DNA of 64,000 bases from Chromobacterium subtsugae. Its GTDB lineage: Bacteria > Pseudomonadota > Gammaproteobacteria > Burkholderiales > Chromobacteriaceae. Location of the stretch: contig NZ_JYKA01000002.1 in assembly GCF_001676875.1 (NCBI RefSeq), positions 124,001 to 188,000 of the forward strand, given 5' to 3'. Both the position numbers and the translations under genes were made by a program. The notes beneath the pieces are model-generated. The model made no database searches. It was not told the origin of the DNA and saw nothing but the letters and a program-made list of their open reading frames with translations. Below, in pieces: positions 1 through 11,667 of this stretch (its first letter is position 1; each line of letters starts with the position of its first letter).

Positions 1-1155
1 AGCGACATGGTGATGCCGGCCATGCTGCAAGTGACCCGCGATCTGGACGCCGACAGCCGCCACGTGCCCACCGCCCTCAACGCCTTCCTGCTGGGCGGCA
101 TCGCCCTGCAATGGCTGATCGGCCCGCTGTCCGACCGCTTCGGCCGCCGGCCGCTGCTGCTGGCCGGCGTCCTGGGCTTCGCCGCCGCCTGCGCCGCCGC
201 CGCCGGGGCGCAGCAGATCGAAAGCTTCAACCTGCTGCGCTTCGCCCAGGGCACCGCGCTCGGCTTCGTCATCGTCGTCAGCTACCCGGCGCTGCAGGAA
301 ACCTTCGCCGAGGAGGACGCGGTGCGGTTGATGGCGCTATTGGCCAATATCGCGCTGCTGTCGCCGCTGGCCGGACCGCTGTTGGGCGGCCTGCTGCTGA
401 AGCTGCTGTCCTGGCGCCAGCTGTTCGCCGCGCTGGCCGCCGCCGCCTTGCTGGTGGCGCTGGGCCTGTGGCGGCTGATGCCGGAGACGGTGGGCGCGCC
501 GCGCCGCGACGGCCCCGCGCTGCCGCCGACGCCATTGCGGCTGAAGGCCGCGCTGGCCAACTACCTCGGCCTGCTGCGCCACCGCACCGTGCTGTGCGGC
601 AGCCTGGCGCTGGGCCTGATCACGCTGCCTCTGATCGCCTGGATCGGCCTGTCACCGCTGCTACTGATCCGCCAGCTGGGCTACAGCAACCTGGAATACG
701 GCCTGTGGCAGCTGCCGGTGTTCGGCGGCGTGATCGCCGGCAACCTGGCGCTGAACCGGCTGGCCGGCCGCCAGAGCCTGGCGCGGCTGCTGCGCCTCTC
801 CCTGGCGCCGATGGCCTGCGGCCTGCTGCTGACCGGCATCCTCACCCCGCTGCATCCGACGCTGCCGACCCTGGCCGCCGGCCTCGCCATCTACGCCTTC
901 GGCCTGGGCCTGGGCAACGCCACGCTGTACCGGCTCACCCTGTACGCCAGCGACAGCGCCAAGGGCAGCGTCGCCGCGGTGCTGGGCATGCTGTCCACCG
1001 CCACGCTGGGCGCCGGCGCGGCCTTGCTGGCCTGGCTGAACGCCGGCGACAGCCCGCAAAGCTTCGCCGTCGGCGCCACCGCCGCCGCGCTGCTGGCCGC
1101 GCCGCCGCTGTGGCTGCTGCTGCGCGCGCCGCAGCCGCAGGCCAGCGCCGCCTGA
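1..1155 (+). CDS. MdfA-like MFS multidrug efflux transporter, 5' end outside window
   Basis: Membrane exporter of the major facilitator superfamily, drug:H+ antiporter DHA1 type. The frame is open from base 1, so the N-terminus lies upstream; the first visible residues align with the end of helix 1 of MdfA/Bcr-type pumps. Visible marks are motif A (GPLSDRFGRRP, about residues 39-49 counting from the ATG at 7), an antiporter motif C (SPLAGPLLGG, about 119-128) and roughly eleven hydrophobic helices. The next gene starts 33 bp after the stop on the same strand, so it is probably cotranscribed with the acyl-activation genes and may export their product or confer self-resistance. The substrate cannot be read from the sequence. 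The family call is firm; MdfA versus a close paralogue is not. Confidence 0.85.
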   Translation, partial: SDMVMPAMLQVTRDLDADSRHVPTALNAFLLGGIALQWLIGPLSDRFGRRPLLLAGVLGFAAACAAAAGAQQIESFNLLRFAQGTALGFVIVVSYPALQETFAEEDAVRLMALLANIALLSPLAGPLLGGLLLKLLSWRQLFAALAAAALLVALGLWRLMPETVGAPRRDGPALPPTPLRLKAALANYLGLLRHRTVLCGSLALGLITLPLIAWIGLSPLLLIRQLGYSNLEYGLWQLPVFGGVIAGNLALNRLAGRQSLARLLRLSLAPMACGLLLTGILTPLHPTLPTLAAGLAIYAFGLGLGNATLYRLTLYASDSAKGSVAAVLGMLSTATLGAGAALLAWLNAGDSPQSFAVGATAAALLAAPPLWLLLRAPQPQASAA

Positions 1156-1187
1156 CACTCGTTTCCCCATCGATACCGTAAAGCACC

Positions 1188-2318
1188 ATGACCTCACTCA
1201 AGCATGTCGAAGCGCTGTGCCATCTGGACGATCCCTACCGCGCCGACGCCGAATGCGACTGCCTGTTCGACGCCGCGATGCGCGAGCTGGTGGACTACCA
1301 CTGCGAGCGCAGCCCCGGCTACCGCCAATGGCTGGAGCAGAACGGCTTCACGCCGGCGCGCCTGGCCGGCCTGGCCGACTGGTCGCAGCTGCCGCCCATC
1401 TTCGCCAACTATTTCAAGCGCCGGCTGCTGCTGAGCGCAAGCGGCGAAGACGCGCTGGAGCTGACTTCGTCCGGCACCACCGGCCAGAAAAGCCGGATGC
1501 GCTACGACGAACGCAGCATCGGCGCCGCCCAGCGCATGGTGGACCGCATCTTCGACCACTACGGCTGGCATACCCCGGACCAACCGGCCAACTACCTGCT
1601 GCTCAGCTACGAGCCGGCGGGCGCCATCACGCTGGGCACCGCCTACACCGACCAGTTCCTGTGCAAGTACGCGCCGGTCAACCGCGCCGTCTACGCGCTG
1701 CGCCACACCGGCAAGGGCAACGAGTTCGATCCCTTCGGCGCGATGCGCGCGCTGCAGGAATTCGCCGCGGAAGGCCTGCCGGTGCGCATTTTAGGCTTCC
1801 CGGCCTTTCTGTGGTTCACGCTGGAGCGGATGCGCGACATGGGCCTGCCGCCGCTCGCCCTGCATCCGCAATCGCTGGTCTTCCTCGGCGGCGGCTGGAA
1901 AACCCATGCCGACCAGGCGATTCCCAAACTGGAGCTGTACCGCCGGCTGGGCGAACAGCTGGGTCTGCCGGACGAACGTTGCCGCGACGGCTACGGCTCG
2001 GTCGAGCATCCAGTGCCCTACGTCGAATGCCCGAACCACCGTTTCCACGTGCCCAGTTGGGCCCGCGCCTGGGCGCGCGACACCGCGACGCTAGCGCGGC
2101 TGCCCTACGGCGAGCCCGGCTTCCTGCACCTGGTTTCGCCCTACATCACCTCAAGCCCGGCCCATAGCCTGGCGTTGAGCGACCTGGCGGCGCTGCACCC
2201 GGCGGCCAGCTGCGGCTGCGGCCTGGCCACCGACTGGTTCGAGCTATTGGGCCGCGCCGGCACCAGCAAGAGCCGCAGCTGCGCGATGGCCGCGTCCGAA
2301 CTGATCAAGGAGTCCTGA
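1188..2318 (+). CDS. LuxE-like acyl-protein synthetase
   Basis: 376-residue protein of the LuxE branch of the PaaK/ANL adenylating family. LuxE activates a carboxylic acid as acyl-AMP and passes the acyl group to its own cysteine for reduction by LuxC. The nucleotide-binding Ser/Thr/Gly loop SSGTTGQKS is at 94-102, a Cys-Gly-Cys-Gly motif lies near 343-346, and a C-terminal cysteine at 365 (SRSCAM) sits where LuxE enzymes carry their acyl-accepting cysteine. Length matches LuxE. The ATG is 33 bp after the transporter stop, and the stop falls 2 bp before the LuxC-like gene, whose ribosome binding site AAGGAG lies inside this gene. No luxA, luxB or luxD is present, so a role in luminescence is not implied; the acyl substrate is unknown. 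Confidence 0.8.
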   Translation: MTSLKHVEALCHLDDPYRADAECDCLFDAAMRELVDYHCERSPGYRQWLEQNGFTPARLAGLADWSQLPPIFANYFKRRLLLSASGEDALELTSSGTTGQKSRMRYDERSIGAAQRMVDRIFDHYGWHTPDQPANYLLLSYEPAGAITLGTAYTDQFLCKYAPVNRAVYALRHTGKGNEFDPFGAMRALQEFAAEGLPVRILGFPAFLWFTLERMRDMGLPPLALHPQSLVFLGGGWKTHADQAIPKLELYRRLGEQLGLPDERCRDGYGSVEHPVPYVECPNHRFHVPSWARAWARDTATLARLPYGEPGFLHLVSPYITSSPAHSLALSDLAALHPAASCGCGLATDWFELLGRAGTSKSRSCAMAASELIKES

Positions 2319-2320
2319 AC

Positions 2321-4723
2321 ATGTATCTGATTGATGGAGAATTGCGCGCCCAGCTCACGGCGGACGACGCGCTGGCCGCGCTGCGCGCCCGACTGGCCGA
2401 CACCCTGGCCGCGGAGCCGGATGTCGAGGCCGTACTGTCCTGCGCCGAGCGTTTCGCCGACGCGCTGGCGCGCGCCGGCGGCCACCCGCTGCTGGACGAG
2501 GCCGGCCGCCTCGCCCTGGCGCGCTTCTGCCGCCGCGAAGCGCTGCAAGCCAAGCTGGAGCGCGAACTGGACGAGCGGCCGTTCTCGCTGCGCCGTCACG
2601 ACTACCGCGAAGCGCGCTTCGAAGCCTGGCGCCCGCTGGGCCTGGTGCTGCACATCACCCCGTCCAACGCGGCGCTGCTGCCCTTCATGGCGGCGCTGGA
2701 AGGCCTCTTGGCCGGCAACGTCAACTGGCTGCGCCCCAGCGCCAGCGACCAGGGCCTGAGCGCGCGGCTGCTGGCCGAATTCCTGCGCCACGACCACAGC
2801 GGCCGGCTGGCCCGGCGCGTCGCCGTGCTGCCCATCGCCAGCGACCGGCTCGCCCCGCTGCTGGCCGAGGCCGACGCGGTGTCCGCCTGGGGCGGCGACG
2901 CCGCGCTGGCCGCCATCCGCGCGCAATTGCCGCCCGGCTGCCGCTGGATAGACTGGGGCCACCGCGTCAGCTTCGCCTATCTCGACCCGGCCGCCGGCGA
3001 CGCACAACTGGACGCGCTGGCCGACGATGTCTGCCGCCACGACCAGCAGGCCTGCTCCAGCCCGCAATGCCTGCTGGTGGACTGCGACGACGCGGAAACG
3101 CTGCGCGGCGTCGCCGCGCGGATGGCCGCCGCGCTGGCGCGCCGCGCGCCTCAGTGGCCGGCGCTGCGGCCCGACCTGCAGGAAGCCGCCGAGATCAGCA
3201 GCCAGATGGCCTTTCTACGGCTGGACCAGGCCTTCGCCGGCCTGGACGGCGAAGTGCTGGACGGCGAAGGCTGGCGGCTGGCCTGGAACGCCCGCCATGA
3301 ACTGGCGCCGTCGCCGCTGTTCCGCACCCTGCAGTTGCGGCCGGCGCCGCGCGCCGAACTCTCCGCCATCCTGCGCCCCTGGCGCACCCGCCTGCAAAGC
3401 TGCGGCCTGATCGCCCCGGCGGCGCGCCTACCGGAACTGAGCCGCGCGCTGCTGGCGGCCGGGGTCAGCCGCGTCGCGCCGGCCGGCCGCATGCACGACG
3501 GCTACGACGGCGAGCCACACGACGGCGTCTACGCGCTGCAACGGCTGTCGCGCCGGGTGTCGGCCACGCTGGACGCCGCCGCGCTGCCCGGCCACGCCCA
3601 CCTGGACGCGCCGCCGGCCGAGCCCGAGGGCCTGGCCGCGCTGCCGGTGATGGACAAGGCCGACTTCCAGCGCCAGGGCGCCAACGCCAAGGCCCAGCTG
3701 TTCTTCCGCAGCGGCGGCAGCAGCGGCGCGCCCAAGCTGGCCGGCTTCAGCTATCGCGACTACCACCGCCAGATGCGCGCCGCCGCCGACGGGCTGTTCG
3801 CCGCCGGGCTCGACCCAGCCGCCGACCGGGTGATGAACCTGCTGTACGGCGGCAAACTGTACGGCGGCATGCTCAGCTTCTTCACTATCCTCGACCACAT
3901 GGGCGTCGCCCAATACCCGATGGGCGGCCCGTCCGACGACGATTTCAGCGAGATCGCGCGCTTCATCGTCGAGCAGAACATCAACACCTTGGTCGGCATG
4001 CCCGGCACCTTGCACCGGCTGTTCGAATGCGAGAACAAGCTGCTGCGCGGCTACGGCGGCGTGCGCAAGGTGTTCTTCGGCGGCGAGCACATCAGCGACG
4101 GCCAGCGCGCCTACATCGGCAGCTTCGGGGTGGAGCTGATCCGCTCCGCCCTGTATGGATCGGTGGATGCCGGCCCGCTCGGCCACGGCTGCCCCGGCAG
4201 CGCCGACGGCGAATTCCACCTGCTGGCCGAAACCCAATGGCTGGAAGTGTTGGAGCAGGACAGCGACCGCCCCGCCGCCGCCGGCGAAATCGGCCGCCTG
4301 GTGTTCACCTCGCGCGAGCGCGAAGCGCAGCGGGTGCGGCGCTACGACCTGGGCGACCTGGGCCGCTGGCTGCCCGGCCGCTGCGCCTGCGGCCTGGCAA
4401 CGCCCCGCTTCCAGCTCACCGGCCGCCACGGCGCGCTGCTGCGGGTCGGCACCATCTTCGTCAATCCGGCCGAGCTGAGCCGGCAAATAGGCCTGCCGCT
4501 GCAATGGCTTGTGGACCAGGCGGACAGCGGCTGCGACCGCATCCGCCTGCTGGCCGACGGCGAGCCCAACCGCATCCGCGCCCAATTGCTGCAGGACCCG
4601 ATGCTGAGCGAAGTCGTCGGCGGCGGCCTGCTGAAACTGGAAATCTCCCCGACGCCGGCGGCCGAATTCCGCCGCCATCCGCACAGCGGCAAGACGCCGC
4701 TGGTGCTGGACCTGCGCCGTTAA
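2321..4723 (+). CDS. Two-domain enzyme: LuxC-like acyl-CoA/acyl-protein reductase fused to PaaK-like adenylating domain
   Basis: 800-residue fusion. Residues about 1-420 match LuxC, the NADPH-dependent reductase that converts activated acyl groups to aldehydes: an HITPSN segment at 111-116, the catalytic cysteine 245 in QQACSSPQ, and the LuxC-type tail around 389-404 (GRMHDGYDGEPHDGVY). Residues about 440-800 form a PaaK-like ligase with loop SGGSSGAPK at 464-472, a GGEHISDGQ segment near 587-595, LYGSVDAG at 611-618 and a C-terminal CACG pair. LuxC proteins are usually about 480 residues and stand alone, so the extra domain is unusual. A strong AAGGAG sits 9 bases before the ATG. It probably activates and reduces an acid, handing intermediates between this protein, the upstream LuxE-like enzyme and the next ligase. 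Substrate and product are unknown. Confidence 0.8.
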   Translation: MYLIDGELRAQLTADDALAALRARLADTLAAEPDVEAVLSCAERFADALARAGGHPLLDEAGRLALARFCRREALQAKLERELDERPFSLRRHDYREARFEAWRPLGLVLHITPSNAALLPFMAALEGLLAGNVNWLRPSASDQGLSARLLAEFLRHDHSGRLARRVAVLPIASDRLAPLLAEADAVSAWGGDAALAAIRAQLPPGCRWIDWGHRVSFAYLDPAAGDAQLDALADDVCRHDQQACSSPQCLLVDCDDAETLRGVAARMAAALARRAPQWPALRPDLQEAAEISSQMAFLRLDQAFAGLDGEVLDGEGWRLAWNARHELAPSPLFRTLQLRPAPRAELSAILRPWRTRLQSCGLIAPAARLPELSRALLAAGVSRVAPAGRMHDGYDGEPHDGVYALQRLSRRVSATLDAAALPGHAHLDAPPAEPEGLAALPVMDKADFQRQGANAKAQLFFRSGGSSGAPKLAGFSYRDYHRQMRAAADGLFAAGLDPAADRVMNLLYGGKLYGGMLSFFTILDHMGVAQYPMGGPSDDDFSEIARFIVEQNINTLVGMPGTLHRLFECENKLLRGYGGVRKVFFGGEHISDGQRAYIGSFGVELIRSALYGSVDAGPLGHGCPGSADGEFHLLAETQWLEVLEQDSDRPAAAGEIGRLVFTSREREAQRVRRYDLGDLGRWLPGRCACGLATPRFQLTGRHGALLRVGTIFVNPAELSRQIGLPLQWLVDQADSGCDRIRLLADGEPNRIRAQLLQDPMLSEVVGGGLLKLEISPTPAAEFRRHPHSGKTPLVLDLRR

Positions 4724-4768
4724 ACCTTGCGCCGGCCGTCCGCGGACGCCGGCGCCGAAGCCGCAATC

Positions 4769-6031
4769 ATGAATCCAAAGCTGAAATCACTCGTCGACCA
4801 CGCCCGGCGCCATTCGCCGTTCTATCGCCAGCTGTACCGCGCGCTGCCCGCCGAGGGCTGGCGGCTGTCCGACCTGCCGCCGGCCGATCCCGACCACTAC
4901 TGGCGCGGCTCGCAAACGCTGCGCGACTGGCCGGTGCTGACCGCGCCGCTGGACGACGGCCATGTCTTCAAGACCGGCGGCTCCACCAGCGAGGGCAAGC
5001 TGTCGGTCTTCAGCCGCGCCGAGTGGCAAGCCTTCGTCCAGGCCTTCGGCGGCGGCGTCGCCCGCCAGCTGCGGGCCGGCGACCGCGTCGCCAACCTGTT
5101 TTTCGCCGGCGACCTCTACACCAGCCTGCTGTTCATCCACGGCGCGCTGTCGCGCGCGCCGCTGCCGCTGGTGGAATTCCCGTTCACCTGCCATGTCGAC
5201 GACGCCGTGCTGGCCGACGCCATCCGCCGATATGAGATCAACGCGCTGACCGGAGTGCCGGCGCAGCTGCTGCGCTTCGCCCACCACCTGGCGCATGCCG
5301 GCCAGACGCTGGCCGGCGTCGATACCGTGCTGTATGGCGGCGAAAGCCTGTTCGGCGAGCAACTGGCGCTGCTGAAACAGGCTTTTCCCCAGGCCCGCAT
5401 CGCCTCGGTGGGCTGCGCCAGCGTCGACGCCGGCCTGATAGGCTATGCCGAGCCCGGCTGCCGCCACGGCGAGCACCGGGTGTTCGACGACGACAGCCTG
5501 GTGGAGATACTGGACGAGGCCAGCGGCGAGCCGATCAGCGAAACCGGCCGCTGCGGCGTGCTGACGCTGACCAATCTGCAGCGCCGACTGATGCCGGTGA
5601 TCCGCTATCCCACCGGCGACCTGGCCTGCTGGCGCGAGCCGCCGGGGCCGGCGCGCAAGTTCGCGCTGCAGGGCCGCTCCGGCCAGGGCCACCGCGTCCG
5701 CGTCGGCACGCTGTCGCTGTTTCCGGCGCAACTGGCGCCGCTGCTGGAAAGGCATGCCGAGCTGTTGGCCTGGCAGCTGGCGATAGAACGCCGGGACGGC
5801 CGGGACGCGCTCAGCCTGCTGCTGGCCAGCCGCCGCCAGCTGGATTGCGCGGCGCTGCGCCAGGACTTGCTGGCCGCCCAACCGGCCATCGCCGCGCTGT
5901 GCGCGGCCGGCCAGCTGCGCCTGGACATCGTCCAGACCAGCCCGGAGCGGATGCGCACCCATCCGCGCTCCGGCAAGCTGATGCGGGTGGTGGATCTGCG
6001 CGACTACCAAGCCGAGGAGGCGCAGCCATGA
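4769..6031 (+). CDS. PaaK-like AMP-dependent ligase
   Basis: 420-residue adenylate-forming enzyme related to phenylacetate-CoA ligase and coenzyme F390 synthetase. It carries the glycine/serine-rich ATP loop TGGSTSEGK at 69-77, a VLYGGESLFGEQ segment and a typical lysine-containing C-terminus (RTHPRSGKL), the last similar to the end of the preceding fusion protein (RRHPHSGKT). The open frame extends upstream to a TTG at 4727, but the ATG at 4769 begins a normal family N-terminus (HSPFYRQLY follows), so I use it. The stop TGA overlaps the ATG of the next gene (ATGA), indicating translational coupling. With the LuxE-like enzyme and the fusion this makes three adenylating domains in one operon; whether they act on the same or different acids is not visible. 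Confidence 0.8.
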   Translation: MNPKLKSLVDHARRHSPFYRQLYRALPAEGWRLSDLPPADPDHYWRGSQTLRDWPVLTAPLDDGHVFKTGGSTSEGKLSVFSRAEWQAFVQAFGGGVARQLRAGDRVANLFFAGDLYTSLLFIHGALSRAPLPLVEFPFTCHVDDAVLADAIRRYEINALTGVPAQLLRFAHHLAHAGQTLAGVDTVLYGGESLFGEQLALLKQAFPQARIASVGCASVDAGLIGYAEPGCRHGEHRVFDDDSLVEILDEASGEPISETGRCGVLTLTNLQRRLMPVIRYPTGDLACWREPPGPARKFALQGRSGQGHRVRVGTLSLFPAQLAPLLERHAELLAWQLAIERRDGRDALSLLLASRRQLDCAALRQDLLAAQPAIAALCAAGQLRLDIVQTSPERMRTHPRSGKLMRVVDLRDYQAEEAQP

Positions 6032-6948
6032 GCGCCCGCCATCCCGCCGCCGCCTGGGCGCGCGACTACCAGGCCGGCGACGCCGCCGCGGTCAGCGCGC
6101 TGTTCCGCGCGGTCTACGGCGACCACTACGTGTATCCGGACGTCTACCTGCCCAGCCAGATCGAGCAACGCAACGCCAGCGGGCAATGGCATTCGGCGGT
6201 GGCGCTGCTGGACGGCCGTCTGGCCGGCCATGCCACGCTGTGGCTGGACCCGGCGCGGCCCGGCCAGGCCGAGCTGGCCTTGAACGTGGTGCATCCGGAC
6301 GCGCGCGGACGCGGCGTGGCCAGCCTGCTGGGACGCCATCTGCGCGCCGCGGCCGGCAGCCTGGGCTGCGGCCTGCTCACCATCAAGCAAGTCTGCTCGC
6401 ACCCGCAAAGCCAATACCTGGCGCAAACGCTGGGCTTCCACACCAGCGCGCTGATGCTGGACTACGTGGATTCGCCGTTCGGCAAGCCCGAGCCGGAAAG
6501 CATCGTGCTGGGTTGCCTGCCGCTGCGGCCGCGGCCGTTGCCCGAACTGGCCTGGCCGGCGGAATGGGAGGAATGGCTGCGGCCGCTGCGCCAGGCCTTC
6601 GGTCCCGGCGCGCCGGCGGCGGCGCCGACGCGCTTGCCCGGCCTCAGCCTGGCGCGCCACGGCCAGCGGCTGGAAGTCGTCGTTCCGCAGCCCAGCGCGG
6701 CGCGGCTGGCGGAAATCGCCGCCCTGCCGGCCGGCCAGCTGATCTACCTGAAGCTGGCGCCAAGCGCCGACGCGCTGGCGCTGCGTCCGCGGCTGGCAGA
6801 GGCGGGCTTCCGCTTCGGCGGCCTGCTGCCCGATGCCGGCGGCGGCTGGCTGCTGTTGTTTCTGCGCGGCCAGCGCGGCGACGCCATCCGCTTCTGCGAC
6901 GCCGGCGCCGAACAGCTATACCGGCTGGATTTGCAGCCGGCGGCTTAA
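6028..6948 (+). CDS. GNAT-family acyltransferase
   Basis: 306-residue protein with an N-terminal GNAT fold: LALNVVHPDARGRGVASLLG contains the acyl-CoA binding Arg-Gly-Arg-Gly loop near residue 91-95. The C-terminal half (about 180-306) has a regulatory-like beta-rich look with no family I can name. The ATG overlaps the previous stop (ATGA) and has GAGGAGG about 8 bases upstream, so the start is secure. GNAT enzymes transfer acyl groups from CoA or carrier-linked thioesters to amines; in this operon it could condense an activated acyl group with an amine, or acetylate the product. It ends tail-to-tail with the YbjQ-like gene, the two stop codons overlapping. Confidence 0.75.
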   Translation: MSARHPAAAWARDYQAGDAAAVSALFRAVYGDHYVYPDVYLPSQIEQRNASGQWHSAVALLDGRLAGHATLWLDPARPGQAELALNVVHPDARGRGVASLLGRHLRAAAGSLGCGLLTIKQVCSHPQSQYLAQTLGFHTSALMLDYVDSPFGKPEPESIVLGCLPLRPRPLPELAWPAEWEEWLRPLRQAFGPGAPAAAPTRLPGLSLARHGQRLEVVVPQPSAARLAEIAALPAGQLIYLKLAPSADALALRPRLAEAGFRFGGLLPDAGGGWLLLFLRGQRGDAIRFCDAGAEQLYRLDLQPAA

Positions 6949-7295
6949 GACGGACGGGCCGCGTCCAGCGGCTCCACCCGCACCGCGGTGCCGTAGCACA
7001 GCACCTCGGTCAGGCCGGCCATCACGTCGGTGGCGTCGTAGCGCATGCCGATCACCGCGTTGGCGCCCAGCGCCGCCGCGTGCTCGCACATCAGCGCGTA
7101 GGTTTCGGAGCGCGCCTGCTCGCACAAGCTGGTATAGATGGTGATGTTGCCGCCGAACAGCGACTGCAAGCCGCCGAGAAAATTACCCACCACCGAGCGC
7201 GAGCGCACCGTAATTCCGCGCACCACGCCCAGATTGGCCACCACCCGGTAGCCGGGCAGATCGAAAGTCGTGCTGACCATTTTTGCCGGCAACAT
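6945..7295 (-). CDS. YbjQ-family (UPF0145) putative metal-binding protein
   Basis: 116-residue protein of the YbjQ family, a small oligomeric beta/alpha fold of unknown function, sometimes called heavy-metal-binding. The family pattern is clear: GYRVVANLGVVRGITVRSRS near residues 15-34, then GLQSLFGGN, YTSLCEQARSETY and GANAVIGMRYDA. The ATG at 7295 has GAGGAG 6 bases upstream; an internal ATG six codons later is less well placed. It is 62 bp downstream of the ComB-like gene on the same strand, with a 7-bp GC hairpin (7313-7331) between them, so it may be either cotranscribed or separately expressed. No function can be assigned from context. Confidence 0.85.
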   Translation of the reverse strand: MLPAKMVSTTFDLPGYRVVANLGVVRGITVRSRSVVGNFLGGLQSLFGGNITIYTSLCEQARSETYALMCEHAAALGANAVIGMRYDATDVMAGLTEVLCYGTAVRVEPLDAARPS

Positions 7296-7357
7296 CGCAT
7301 TCTCCTCAAGTCGGCCCGCCCGATGCGGGCCGGAAACGAATCGGGAACCGCCGCGCC

Positions 7358-8068
7358 TCACAGCGCGCGATACTCGCCTGCCTGCAGACGCGGCACGCAG
7401 GTGCTGACATCCAGCTGCGCCGCCAGTTCGATATCGTCGGCGAAGCCGCGCTCGATCAGTTCCAGGCTGGACGTGCACTGGCGCAGATGGCTGAGCAAAT
7501 CATGCCTGGCCAGCAAGAACGCCGCTTCGGCCGCCTGCGCCTCCGGCGACTTGCTGCCAGTCAGCCGGTGAATGATGGCGCCGGCGCCGATGAAGTCTTC
7601 GAAGGCGAAACGCAGCTCGCCGTCCGGTGCGCGTTCGCCCGCGGCGATCAGCCGCACCGGCGCGCCCTGGCTGCCGGCGTATGCCGCCACCGCGGCGGCA
7701 TTGCGCAGACAGCCCGCCACCACCTCGCCCGCCGCGCACTCCAGGCTCAAGGCGGCGCCGTTCGGCGAGGGCAGCACCAGCCGGCTGCCGGCGCTCAGCG
7801 CCCGCATCGAGACCGGCGACAACGACAGCTTGTTGCGGCTGCGCTTGCCGGCCAGCTGGGCCTTGCGCTCGGCGGCGAAGGCTGCGGCGCCCTCGTCGTC
7901 GGGACGAAAAGGCAGCAGCGCCGCGCCGCAGCCGCAGCCGATGTCGACGCAGGTGCTGAACGACAGCACGTCGACAATCACGCACAGCGCCGCCTGCCCA
8001 TCCAGCCGACGCACGCCCGGCAGGCCCCATTCCAGCCCAATATCGTATTCCTGCTGCCCTTGATACAT
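7358..8068 (-). CDS. ComB-family (2-phosphosulfolactate phosphatase-like) protein
   Basis: 236-residue protein with the ComB fold: IVDVLSFSTC near 31-40, LPSPNGA, a glycine/asparagine segment (CLRNAAAVAAYA), then GERAPDGELRFAFEDFIGAG. In methanogens ComB dephosphorylates 2-phosphosulfolactate on the way to coenzyme M; most bacteria with this family do not make coenzyme M, so the physiological substrate here is unknown. Two adjacent ATG codons (8069-8071 and 8066-8068) follow the ribosome site AGAGGG; the second gives better spacing. The protein is cysteine-rich around 40-47 (Cys40, Cys45, Cys47). It lies just after the terminator of the DUF3224 gene, so it probably has its own promoter within a very short gap or relies on readthrough. 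Confidence 0.75.
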   Translation of the reverse strand: MYQGQQEYDIGLEWGLPGVRRLDGQAALCVIVDVLSFSTCVDIGCGCGAALLPFRPDDEGAAAFAAERKAQLAGKRSRNKLSLSPVSMRALSAGSRLVLPSPNGAALSLECAAGEVVAGCLRNAAAVAAYAGSQGAPVRLIAAGERAPDGELRFAFEDFIGAGAIIHRLTGSKSPEAQAAEAAFLLARHDLLSHLRQCTSSLELIERGFADDIELAAQLDVSTCVPRLQAGEYRAL

Positions 8069-9736: not shown

Positions 9737-10730
9737 GCGTCACCTCCTCGGCGGCTTTGACCAGTTCTTCCGCCGGCTTGTGACAGGCGCGCAGAATCTG
9801 CGGATTCAGGCTGCTGGCGGCCAGCGGCGGCAGCTCGCCGACGCAGCGCTCGCTGCTGTGCACGCAGCGCTCGCTGAACGGACAGCCCTTGGGCATATTG
9901 GCCATATTAGGCGGATTGCCGGGGATGCTGACCAGCTCGGAGCCGTCGTGGTCCAGCCGCGGCAGCGCGCCCAGCAGGCCGATGGTGTAGGGATGGCTCG
10001 GGTGGTAGAAGATGTCGTCGGCGCGGCCGTACTCCATCGCCCGGCCGCCGTACATCACCAGCACGTTCTCGCACAGGCCCGCCACCACGCCCAGGTCGTG
10101 GGTGATCATGATGATCGAGGTGCCGAAATCGCGCTGCAGGTCCTTCAGCAGCGTCAGGATCTGCGCCTGCACCGTCACGTCCAGCGCGGTGGTCGGCTCG
10201 TCGGCGATCAGCACTTCCGGCTCGCACAGCAGCGCCATCGCGATCATCACCCGCTGGCGCATGCCGCCGGAGAATTCGTGCGGGTACATATTGATGCGCC
10301 GCGCCGCTTCCGGGATGCGCACCGCGTCCAAAAGCTCGATCGCGCGCTTTTTGGCGTCGCGCCGGCTCAGGCCCTTGTGCAGCTCCAGCACCTCGCTCAT
10401 CTGCCGCTCCACCGTCAGGTAGGGGTTCAGCGAGGTCATCGGGTCCTGGAAGATCATCGAGATGCGGTCGCCGCGGATCTTGTTCAGATCCTTCGCGCCC
10501 ATCGCCAGCAGGTTTTGGCCGTGGTACAGCGCTTCGCCGCTGGTTTTGCCGTTCTTGGCCAGCAGCCCCATCATCGCCAGCACGGTCTGGCTCTTGCCGG
10601 AGCCGGATTCGCCGACGATGCCCAGGGTCTGGCCCTTTTTCAACTCGAAATTCACGCCGTTGACGGCGTTGACCACGCCGTCGTTGGTCTGGAACTGAAC
10701 CCCGAGGTTAGTTACTTTCAGAATGCTCAT
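9729..10730 (-). CDS. oppD: Oligopeptide ABC transporter ATP-binding protein OppD
   Basis: 333-residue ATPase paired with OppF. Walker A GESGSGKSQ is at 40-48, followed by IFQDPMTSLNP, the signature FSGGMRQRV and Walker B VLIADEP, then the peptide-transporter C-terminal domain with GCPFSERC. The frame is open to an ATG at 10742, but the ATG at 10730 starts the usual family N-terminus (MSILKVTNLGVQF) and has GAGG upstream. It begins 26 bp after the oppC stop and overlaps oppF by 8 bp. OppD and OppF form the heterodimeric motor bound to the OppBC permease. Confidence 0.9.
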   Translation of the reverse strand: MSILKVTNLGVQFQTNDGVVNAVNGVNFELKKGQTLGIVGESGSGKSQTVLAMMGLLAKNGKTSGEALYHGQNLLAMGAKDLNKIRGDRISMIFQDPMTSLNPYLTVERQMSEVLELHKGLSRRDAKKRAIELLDAVRIPEAARRINMYPHEFSGGMRQRVMIAMALLCEPEVLIADEPTTALDVTVQAQILTLLKDLQRDFGTSIIMITHDLGVVAGLCENVLVMYGGRAMEYGRADDIFYHPSHPYTIGLLGALPRLDHDGSELVSIPGNPPNMANMPKGCPFSERCVHSSERCVGELPPLAASSLNPQILRACHKPAEELVKAAEEVTHV

Positions 10731-10755: not shown

Positions 10756-11667
10756 TCAGCGGTCTTTCGGGTCCAGCGCGTCGCGCAGGCCGTCGCCGAT
10801 ATAGTTGGCGCAATACAGCGTCAGCGACAACATCCCGGCCGGGAACAGCAGGATCCACGGCGTGGAATCCATCACCCCGGCACCGTCCTGGATCAGCACG
10901 CCCCAGCTGGTCATCGGCTCCTGCACCCCCAGGCCGAGGAAGGACAGCACCGACTCGGTCAGGATCACGCCCGGCACCGTCACCGTGGTGTAGATCACCA
11001 CGATGCCCAGCAGGTTGGGCACGATGTGGCGGAAAATGATCACAGGCGTCGACACGCCGATCGCGTGCGCCGCCTCGACGTATTCCTTGGACTTGATCGC
11101 CAGCGCCTGGCCGCGCACCACCCGCGCCATGTCCATCCACGAGAACACGGTGATGGTCAGCACCACCAGGTAGAACTCGCGGCCCAAGAGCGTCACCATC
11201 AGAATGGCGATCAGCAGGTAGGGCACCGCGTACATCATGTCGACGATGCGCATCATCAGCGAGTCGATCTTGCCGCCGAGGAAGCCGGCGGTGGCGCCCC
11301 AGACTATGCCCAGGATCACCGAGGCGATGGTGGCCAGCAGGCCCACCATCAGCGAGATGCGGCCGCCGACCAGGCAGCGCACCAGCAGGTCGCGCCCCAG
11401 CGCGTCGGTGCCGAACCAGTGCATATTATGCAGCGTGGGCGCCTCGCTCATCGCGTCCCAGTCGGTATCGGCATAGCCGTTGGCCAGCAGCATGGGGCCG
11501 AAGATACAGGCCAGCGTGATCAGGCTGAGCACCACCAGGCTGACCACCGCCGCCTTGTTGCGGAGAAACCGGATGCGGGCGTCGCGCCACAGGCTGCGGC
11601 CTTCGACCGCCGCCTCGCTCAGGCCGTTTTCCAGCGCTACGGCCGCAGCCGCTTGTTTGCTCTTCAT
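10756..11667 (-). CDS. oppC: Oligopeptide ABC transporter permease OppC
   Basis: About 303-residue integral membrane subunit with one N-terminal helix (about 33-55), then five further helices and the cytoplasmic EAA loop (AHAIGVSTPVIIFRHIVPN) that contacts the ATPases. AAGGAA immediately precedes tandem ATG codons at 11670 and 11667; the second has better spacing. A longer frame to 11715 would overlap oppB and lacks a ribosome site. It starts 13-16 bp after oppB and is followed by oppD after 25 bp, consistent with one transcript. Family assignment is secure from the OppC-type N-terminal extension and operon order. Confidence 0.9.
   Translation of the reverse strand: MKSKQAAAAVALENGLSEAAVEGRSLWRDARIRFLRNKAAVVSLVVLSLITLACIFGPMLLANGYADTDWDAMSEAPTLHNMHWFGTDALGRDLLVRCLVGGRISLMVGLLATIASVILGIVWGATAGFLGGKIDSLMMRIVDMMYAVPYLLIAILMVTLLGREFYLVVLTITVFSWMDMARVVRGQALAIKSKEYVEAAHAIGVSTPVIIFRHIVPNLLGIVVIYTTVTVPGVILTESVLSFLGLGVQEPMTSWGVLIQDGAGVMDSTPWILLFPAGMLSLTLYCANYIGDGLRDALDPKDR

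Follow-up and report, generated by a model that had tools for sequence, protein, structure and literature searches.

What does an operon make that joins the acid-activating and reducing enzymes of the lux type to further adenylating ligases, an acetyltransferase and an exporter? The question is raised by five open genes, all on the + strand, at the left end of a 64,000-nucleotide stretch of Chromobacterium subtsugae DNA (contig NZ_JYKA01000002.1, positions 124,001 to 188,000). This whole stretch is referred to as the window (G000:C12:124001-188000, part of a 4.8 Mb genome), and the genes lie within its positions 1-6948 according to its list of open reading frames (ORFs). They encode an MFS exporter, a LuxE-like acyl-protein synthetase, a LuxC reductase fused to a PaaK-like adenylating domain, a stand-alone PaaK-like ligase and a GNAT N-acetyltransferase. 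Judging from sequence comparison, the operon is very probably the Chromobacterium orthologue of leup, a pathway free of non-ribosomal peptide synthetases (NRPS) for leupeptin and close analogues, and the exact product of the source strain would be of the leupeptin type. Leupeptin, N-acetyl-Leu-Leu-argininal, is a small protease-blocking peptide aldehyde. The pathway and the product class are already known, and the Chromobacterium locus is a real, complete operon of the leup type.

Relation of the operon to leup

Leupeptin was first suggested as a candidate by the list of hosts (Photorhabdus, Xenorhabdus and Klebsiella michiganensis). Excerpts of PMC8283571 describe, for K. michiganensis within the K. 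oxytoca complex, leupABCD and a transporter next to it, together with a primer pair, leupA_f/leupB_r (credited there to Li et al. 2020), with a product of 1,235 bp. Both primers match the K. michiganensis locus among our loci (L088) perfectly, one at 10053 (+) and the other at 11287 (-), and delimit an amplicon of 1,235 bp, the published size. The two sites fall in the LuxE and LuxC genes, so that the LuxE gene is leupA and the LuxC/PaaK gene is leupB; leupC (PaaK) and leupD (GNAT) were assigned by their position after leupB, not by primers. A sequence-only reading of the window had called the cluster an orphan and had named homologous clusters with a known product as what would speak against it. 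Such clusters exist (leup, for leupeptin, tied through the primers in L088), and the orphan label was not borne out.

According to excerpts of PMC11480411, the K. oxytoca leup operon yields leupeptin and its Lys analogue as well as a derived pyrazinone; leupeptin is lost in a nanA mutant unable to use the eliciting sugar, deletion of leup leads to less yersiniabactin, and the Photorhabdus leup cluster is mentioned as an earlier source of the pyrazinone. For X. bovienii, the part of PMC11212599 that we cite attributes leupeptin to a pathway built from separate AMP-dependent ligases plus a reductase, without an NRPS, and a passage of PMC10548850 contrasts the non-NRPS route with NRPS routes.

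The LeupA, LeupB, LeupC and LeupD proteins of the window are 70, 54, 55 and 48% identical to those of L088, 80, 64, 64 and 46% to those of Xenorhabdus bovienii (L047), and 78, 66, 62 and 44% to those of Photorhabdus luminescens (L057). In a tree of 31 LuxE-family rows, covering LeupA only (28 distinct genes; L123, L126 and L127 repeat other rows), the window LuxE falls within a 27-row leup group with support 100/99. Outside this group are L121 and L122 (lux-operon LuxE) and L124 and L125 (LuxE-like), all from Photorhabdus; the composition of L121 and L122 is unusual, and branching within the leup group is mostly unresolved. The L122 gene adjoins two luciferase-family genes and luxD and is thus a lux-operon LuxE, so that its genome (P. 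luminescens G150), which also has leupA, carries both lux and leup. We note that L124 and L125 (from G150 and G151) are a third LuxE-like protein of about 392 amino acids (aa), with 131 and 129 bits to PF04443, apart from both lux LuxE and LeupA; aminotransferase-like and flavoprotein-like ORFs (named by eye) lie in the same 4 kb.

The operon has the four enzyme genes in the order A to D, as in L088, and an adjacent transporter gene that ends 32 bp before leupA. The LeupA tree and the identities relate its enzymes to leup rather than to other LuxE/LuxC proteins, and the catalytic residues are intact (Cys365 and TSSGTTG in LeupA; Cys245 and FRSGGSSG in LeupB). Coordinates are listed in Table 1.

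Table 1. Genes and proposed catalytic codons of the operon (window coordinates)
Feature	Position	Strand	Evidence and remarks
MFS exporter, MdfA/Bcr type (leup-adjacent transporter)	1..1155	+	C-terminal 384 of 418 aa; Pfam, NCBIfam; 55% identity to the MFS protein encoded directly upstream of leupA in L088
LeupA, LuxE-like acyl-protein synthetase, 376 aa	1188..2318	+	Pfam, PDB profile search, identities, tree, model
Codon of LeupA Cys365, proposed acyl-acceptor cysteine as in LuxE	2280..2282	+	Alignment column, 7xc6_E
LeupB, LuxC reductase domain (residues 31-412) and PaaK-like adenylating domain (~430-800)	2321..4723	+	Pfam, NCBIfam, PDB profiles, identities
Codon of LeupB Cys245, proposed LuxC-domain catalytic cysteine, motif QQACSSPQ	3053..3055	+	Alignment A2, 7xc6_A
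LeupC, stand-alone PaaK-like adenylating ligase, 420 aa	4769..6031	+	NCBIfam, identities
LeupD, GNAT N-acetyltransferase, 306 aa, with extra C-terminal region	6028..6948	+	Pfam, model, identities; top PDB fold phosphinothricin N-acetyltransferase

Five tightly spaced plus-strand genes with this domain content had been read from the sequence alone, and ORFs, Pfam, NCBIfam and PDB profiles confirm them. Pfam matches are MFS_1 (E=7.6e-34), PF04443 LuxE (2.3e-23), PF05893 LuxC (2e-133) and GNAT (3e-10); PF00501 matches the two ligase regions weakly (6e-5 and 1e-5, below the curated cut-off). NCBIfam returned an MdfA-type exporter (3.9e-94), LuxE (1.6e-18), LuxC (1.3e-13) and, in the two ligase regions, a DVU_1553/PaaK-type ligase (1e-21 and 1e-24); all of these are below curated cut-offs, and none is therefore a named equivalog. 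The PDB profile search found LuxE and LuxC of the complex 7xc6 (1e-25 and 8e-25) and PaaK 4r1l (3.6e-23).

From MFS through LuxE, LuxC/PaaK and PaaK to GNAT, the intergenic gaps are 32, 2 and 45 bp, followed by a 4-bp overlap. The leftward extent of the cluster, which the sequence-only reading had raised, could be settled: the ATG of the MFS gene lies 102 bases left of the window, and the next ORF is divergent and conserved in 9 of the 10 genomes of the genus searched, so the operon goes no further left. At its other end (6948) it is followed by a YbjQ-like gene on the opposite strand, and with both neighbours so oriented the operon is complete. A promoter and terminator scan upstream of the operon found nothing, and downstream it found a single terminator-like site, on the opposite strand.

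Catalytic residues, proposed route and alternatives

All 31 rows (28 distinct genes), among them lux-operon LuxE of Photorhabdus, have Cys in the column of LeupA Cys365, which is aligned with a Cys of LuxE (7xc6_E). LeupB Cys245 is invariant in all 11 rows of alignment A2 (the LuxC/PaaK protein) and is aligned with the Cys of DQQACFSTQ in LuxC (7xc6_A). We take the aligned cysteines to be those that carry the acyl group and act in catalysis in the lux enzymes (LuxE and LuxC), and the roles of Cys365, TSSGTTG, Cys245 and FRSGGSSG are presumed to carry over from the lux enzymes and PaaK. The LeupD model (predicted local distance difference test, pLDDT, 90.6) is a GNAT fold, with ribosomal-protein and polyamine acetyltransferases close behind the top solved fold; leucine acetylation would suit it. 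The LeupA model is of moderate quality (pLDDT 77.2) and was used for fold only, because residues 73-104 and 359-370, with the TSSGTTG loop and Cys365, are below 50.

In the proposed route, LeupD would acetylate the amino group of leucine using acetyl-CoA. LeupC and the C-terminal PaaK-like domain of LeupB would each form an acyl-AMP and couple its acyl group to the amino group of the incoming amino acid, so that Ac-Leu-Leu arises first and is then extended to Ac-Leu-Leu-Arg (leupeptin acid). The LuxE-like LeupA would adenylate leupeptin acid and load the acyl group on Cys365, from which it would move to Cys245 of the LeupB LuxC domain for NADPH reduction to the aldehyde, and the MFS pump would export the product. 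The single acetylation, the two amide bonds, and the activation and reduction of the acid that leupeptin synthesis calls for are matched by one GNAT, two PaaK-type domains, one LuxE and one LuxC, respectively; the three activations would serve two amide bonds and one reduction. The cysteine relay, and any allocation of a given bond to a given ligase, are putative. Older work on Streptomyces roseus reportedly found three enzymes, namely a leucine acetyltransferase, a leupeptin acid synthetase and a leupeptin acid reductase that depends on ATP and NADPH, and this set fits the division of labour suggested for leup. On this route the operon would be a clean example of luminescence-type reductase chemistry applied to a peptide, and Chromobacterium carriers should secrete an inhibitor of trypsin-like and cysteine proteases.

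A lux-like pathway, in which LuxE and LuxC reduce a long-chain acid to a fatty aldehyde or lipid product, would account for the presence of the two families and is still barely credible. The genome holds one LuxE gene and one full LuxC match (448 bits) besides three weak ones (21-30 bits), and PF02273 (the luxD type) was not found in it, the Photorhabdus control giving 557 bits. Its lone luciferase-family gene is on a different contig from the operon, and luxA/luxB do not adjoin luxC/luxE. From the position of this gene and the missing PF02273 it follows that there is no lux operon, and the absence of luxA, luxB and luxD noted in the sequence-only reading stands. The window LuxE is also apart from lux-operon LuxE in the tree, and in P. 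luminescens G150 the lux operon and leupA are found together in one genome. An aryl-acid reductase with an aromatic product is very unlikely too. Excerpts of PMC10179220 report that GriC (AMP-binding) and GriD jointly reduce an aryl acid to the aldehyde (grixazone), and several PaaK-like matches use aryl acids (e.g. PaaK and ClxA), but the operon contains no aromatic-precursor genes and corresponds as a whole to an orthologous operon whose published product is a peptide.

It is improbable, to a lesser degree, that the same cassette and chemistry make a different N-acyl peptide aldehyde in Chromobacterium, with other side chains or another acyl cap. LeupD is 44-48% identical to its counterparts in L088, L047 and L057, and Lys and homo-Arg variants are described from published leup operons. 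Against this, identity is 70-80% for LeupA and 54-66% for LeupB and LeupC, values that are not decisive as specificity can shift within such distances. Several points also weigh against leup and leupeptin as the identity of the operon and its product. LeupD, the enzyme that sets the N-cap, is the least conserved of the four, and an MFS gene next to leupA is missing in 31 Photorhabdus and Xenorhabdus loci, which makes the exporter role less than universal. The LeupA model is closest to PaaK enzymes, and its 50 best Foldseek matches are of the PaaK type or other ANL enzymes, without LuxE of 7xc6. The evidence for the leup product comes from other genera and the Chromobacterium assignment from sequence; the loci of Klebsiella, Xenorhabdus and Photorhabdus used for comparison may come from strains other than those tested, and the primer tie concerns Klebsiella only. 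A link between Chromobacterium and leupeptin was not found among the matches listed in the open-access literature (subscription papers were mostly outside this search); papers with both words concern other subjects, judged by title. Two further papers considered for PaaK/LuxC, PMC7744662 and PMC11481866, describe other clusters in the parts seen. Taken together, leup with a leupeptin-type product is the reading we prefer. A compact pathway for a secreted aldehyde- or amide-type molecule outside polyketide synthase (PKS) and NRPS logic had been proposed from the sequence alone, and a peptide aldehyde fits that proposal; the product class itself, leupeptin, had already been published.

Distribution and mobility of the cassette

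When named genomes were scanned with the LuxE alignment, 372 candidate stretches came up, 352 of which encode relatives; the locus counts below refer to the best 80 of these 352. The closest named LuxE relatives are Chromobacterium proteins, with at most 92% identity. LuxE, LuxC/PaaK, PaaK and GNAT genes have one order and strand in 77 of the 80 loci, the other three (L041, L042 and L063) being truncated by contig ends. This shared order excludes chance, and the genes do travel together, a co-occurrence that the sequence-only reading had put forward as a check. MFS is found upstream in 44 loci, is absent in 34 and is undecided in 2. The loci without it, each with more than 1,300 bases of upstream DNA, are 13 from Photorhabdus, 18 from Xenorhabdus, and L093, L095 and L096. 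Among neighbour families present in at least four loci, MFS alone spans genera widely, and the other listed families are confined to Chromobacterium, Pseudomonas, Photorhabdus, or Xenorhabdus plus an Enterobacteriaceae bin (L076); the cassette itself is therefore the unit. Below the four-locus threshold, two flanking families are common to L093 (Pantoea sp.) and L096 (P. entomophila). Two loci show irregular genes, from decay or assembly error: leupB is a short 481-aa ORF and leupC is short in Rosenbergiella gaditana (L095), and an uncultured Cedecea (L094) has a split MFS gene.

The cassette is patchily spread. Among 150 relatives searched, the fusion protein occurs in 14 of 18 same-genus genomes (full length in 11, and at a contig end in the other 3, G002, G009 and G012), and full-length copies with 60-63% identity were found in 3 of the 132 genomes outside the genus. 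In a class-level genome sample, 1 of 369 genomes matched at E 1e-60, the window's own; such even sampling draws few genomes per genus and shows patchiness, not the number of carriers. Viral contigs scanned with the LuxE alignment gave 34 pattern matches with 0 relatives among them, and phage records gave one partial match, to the LuxC part only.

When the flank genes were sought in 10 same-genus genomes, the upstream one was found in 9 and the downstream one in 7. In two genomes without the fusion gene (G007 and G017) the flanks are 1.83 and 1.74 kb apart, compared with ~7.4 kb, and blastn gave no match to operon DNA between them; in G007 two other ORFs, 306 and 242 aa long, lie in this space. 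G015 has the operon at the window's site. In G005, DNA matching window -79 to 6872 (77.5% identity) has no flank match and the upstream flank gene is far away on the same contig, so the operon is at another site there. G010 matched neither flank gene and G011 the upstream one only, which leaves the operon site in both undecided. The site at window 6945-7478, by the YbjQ-like gene (also at L129/L130 of G007 and G017), is thus occupied by the leup operon in some Chromobacterium genomes and, in two others, by a different 1.7-1.8 kb of DNA, and it may be an insertion hot spot.

Beyond the genus, a Salmonella enterica conjugative IncF plasmid (CP054717) carries leupABCD without MFS, and most of the cassette is found in 2 of 72,556 plasmid records. 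On CP054717 (L037:4387-18217), leupABCD lies between Tn3-type transposase and recombinase genes, with IS911-like DNA directly downstream. Megablast of the Salmonella cassette DNA against E. coli genomes gave no match, a search that would miss DNA below ~85% identity.

The genes of three Streptomyces-type plasmid loci (L038-L040) form a single run, PaaK-MFS-GNAT-LuxE-LuxC/PaaK. In L039, identity to the window is 58% for LuxE, 44% for LuxC/PaaK and 42% for PaaK; its GNAT is distantly similar to the leup GNAT (15 bits), its MFS gave no match to the proteobacterial leup-MFS profile, and both belong to broad Pfam families. A kinase-like gene lies directly downstream in L039. That the core stays fixed while the cap enzyme and the exporter are exchanged agrees with the roles assigned to each. 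Altogether, the cassette is mobile: it changes site within the genus, has reached a Salmonella plasmid, and occurs in Streptomyces beside a different exporter and a distant GNAT. A wider view, on which we are evenly divided, is that the LuxE/LuxC pair of bioluminescence was recruited as a peptidyl-acid reductase, with leupeptin acid passing from Cys365 to Cys245 by the relay established for fatty acids, and that NRPS-free leupeptin synthesis is perhaps cross-phylum and perhaps behind some actinomycete leupeptin. Telling against the actinomycete part, PMC10548850 lists, in the section concerned, Streptomyces leupeptin under NRPS products. The assignment gives a product class to a cassette that could not be predicted from ordinary PKS/NRPS logic, and places that cassette in Chromobacterium and Streptomyces.

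Comparison with known systems

The leup operons of Klebsiella oxytoca/michiganensis, Xenorhabdus and Photorhabdus have the same four enzyme genes in the same order, with 44-80% protein identity to the operon studied here. As in the Chromobacterium operon, MFS is directly upstream in Klebsiella, whereas the Photorhabdus and Xenorhabdus copies are without an adjacent MFS gene; the host also differs, being Chromobacterium here. The Streptomyces-type loci share clear homologues of LuxE, LuxC/PaaK and PaaK, plus a GNAT and an MFS gene, but have another gene order, a distant GNAT and an MFS not of the proteobacterial leup type.

Compared with the lux LuxC-LuxE complex (PDB 7xc6), the C-terminal cysteine of LuxE and the QQAC cysteine of LuxC are kept, and the logic of acyl-AMP to acyl-Cys to aldehyde is likely common to the two systems. 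Unlike lux, the Chromobacterium system has no luxA/B operon or luxD, its LuxC is fused to a PaaK-like domain, its LuxE belongs to a separate clade, and its proposed substrate is a peptide acid. GriC/GriD, compared by described activity alone, likewise pair an adenylating enzyme with a reductase to give an aldehyde, but by that description they act on an aryl substrate with a two-protein reductase.

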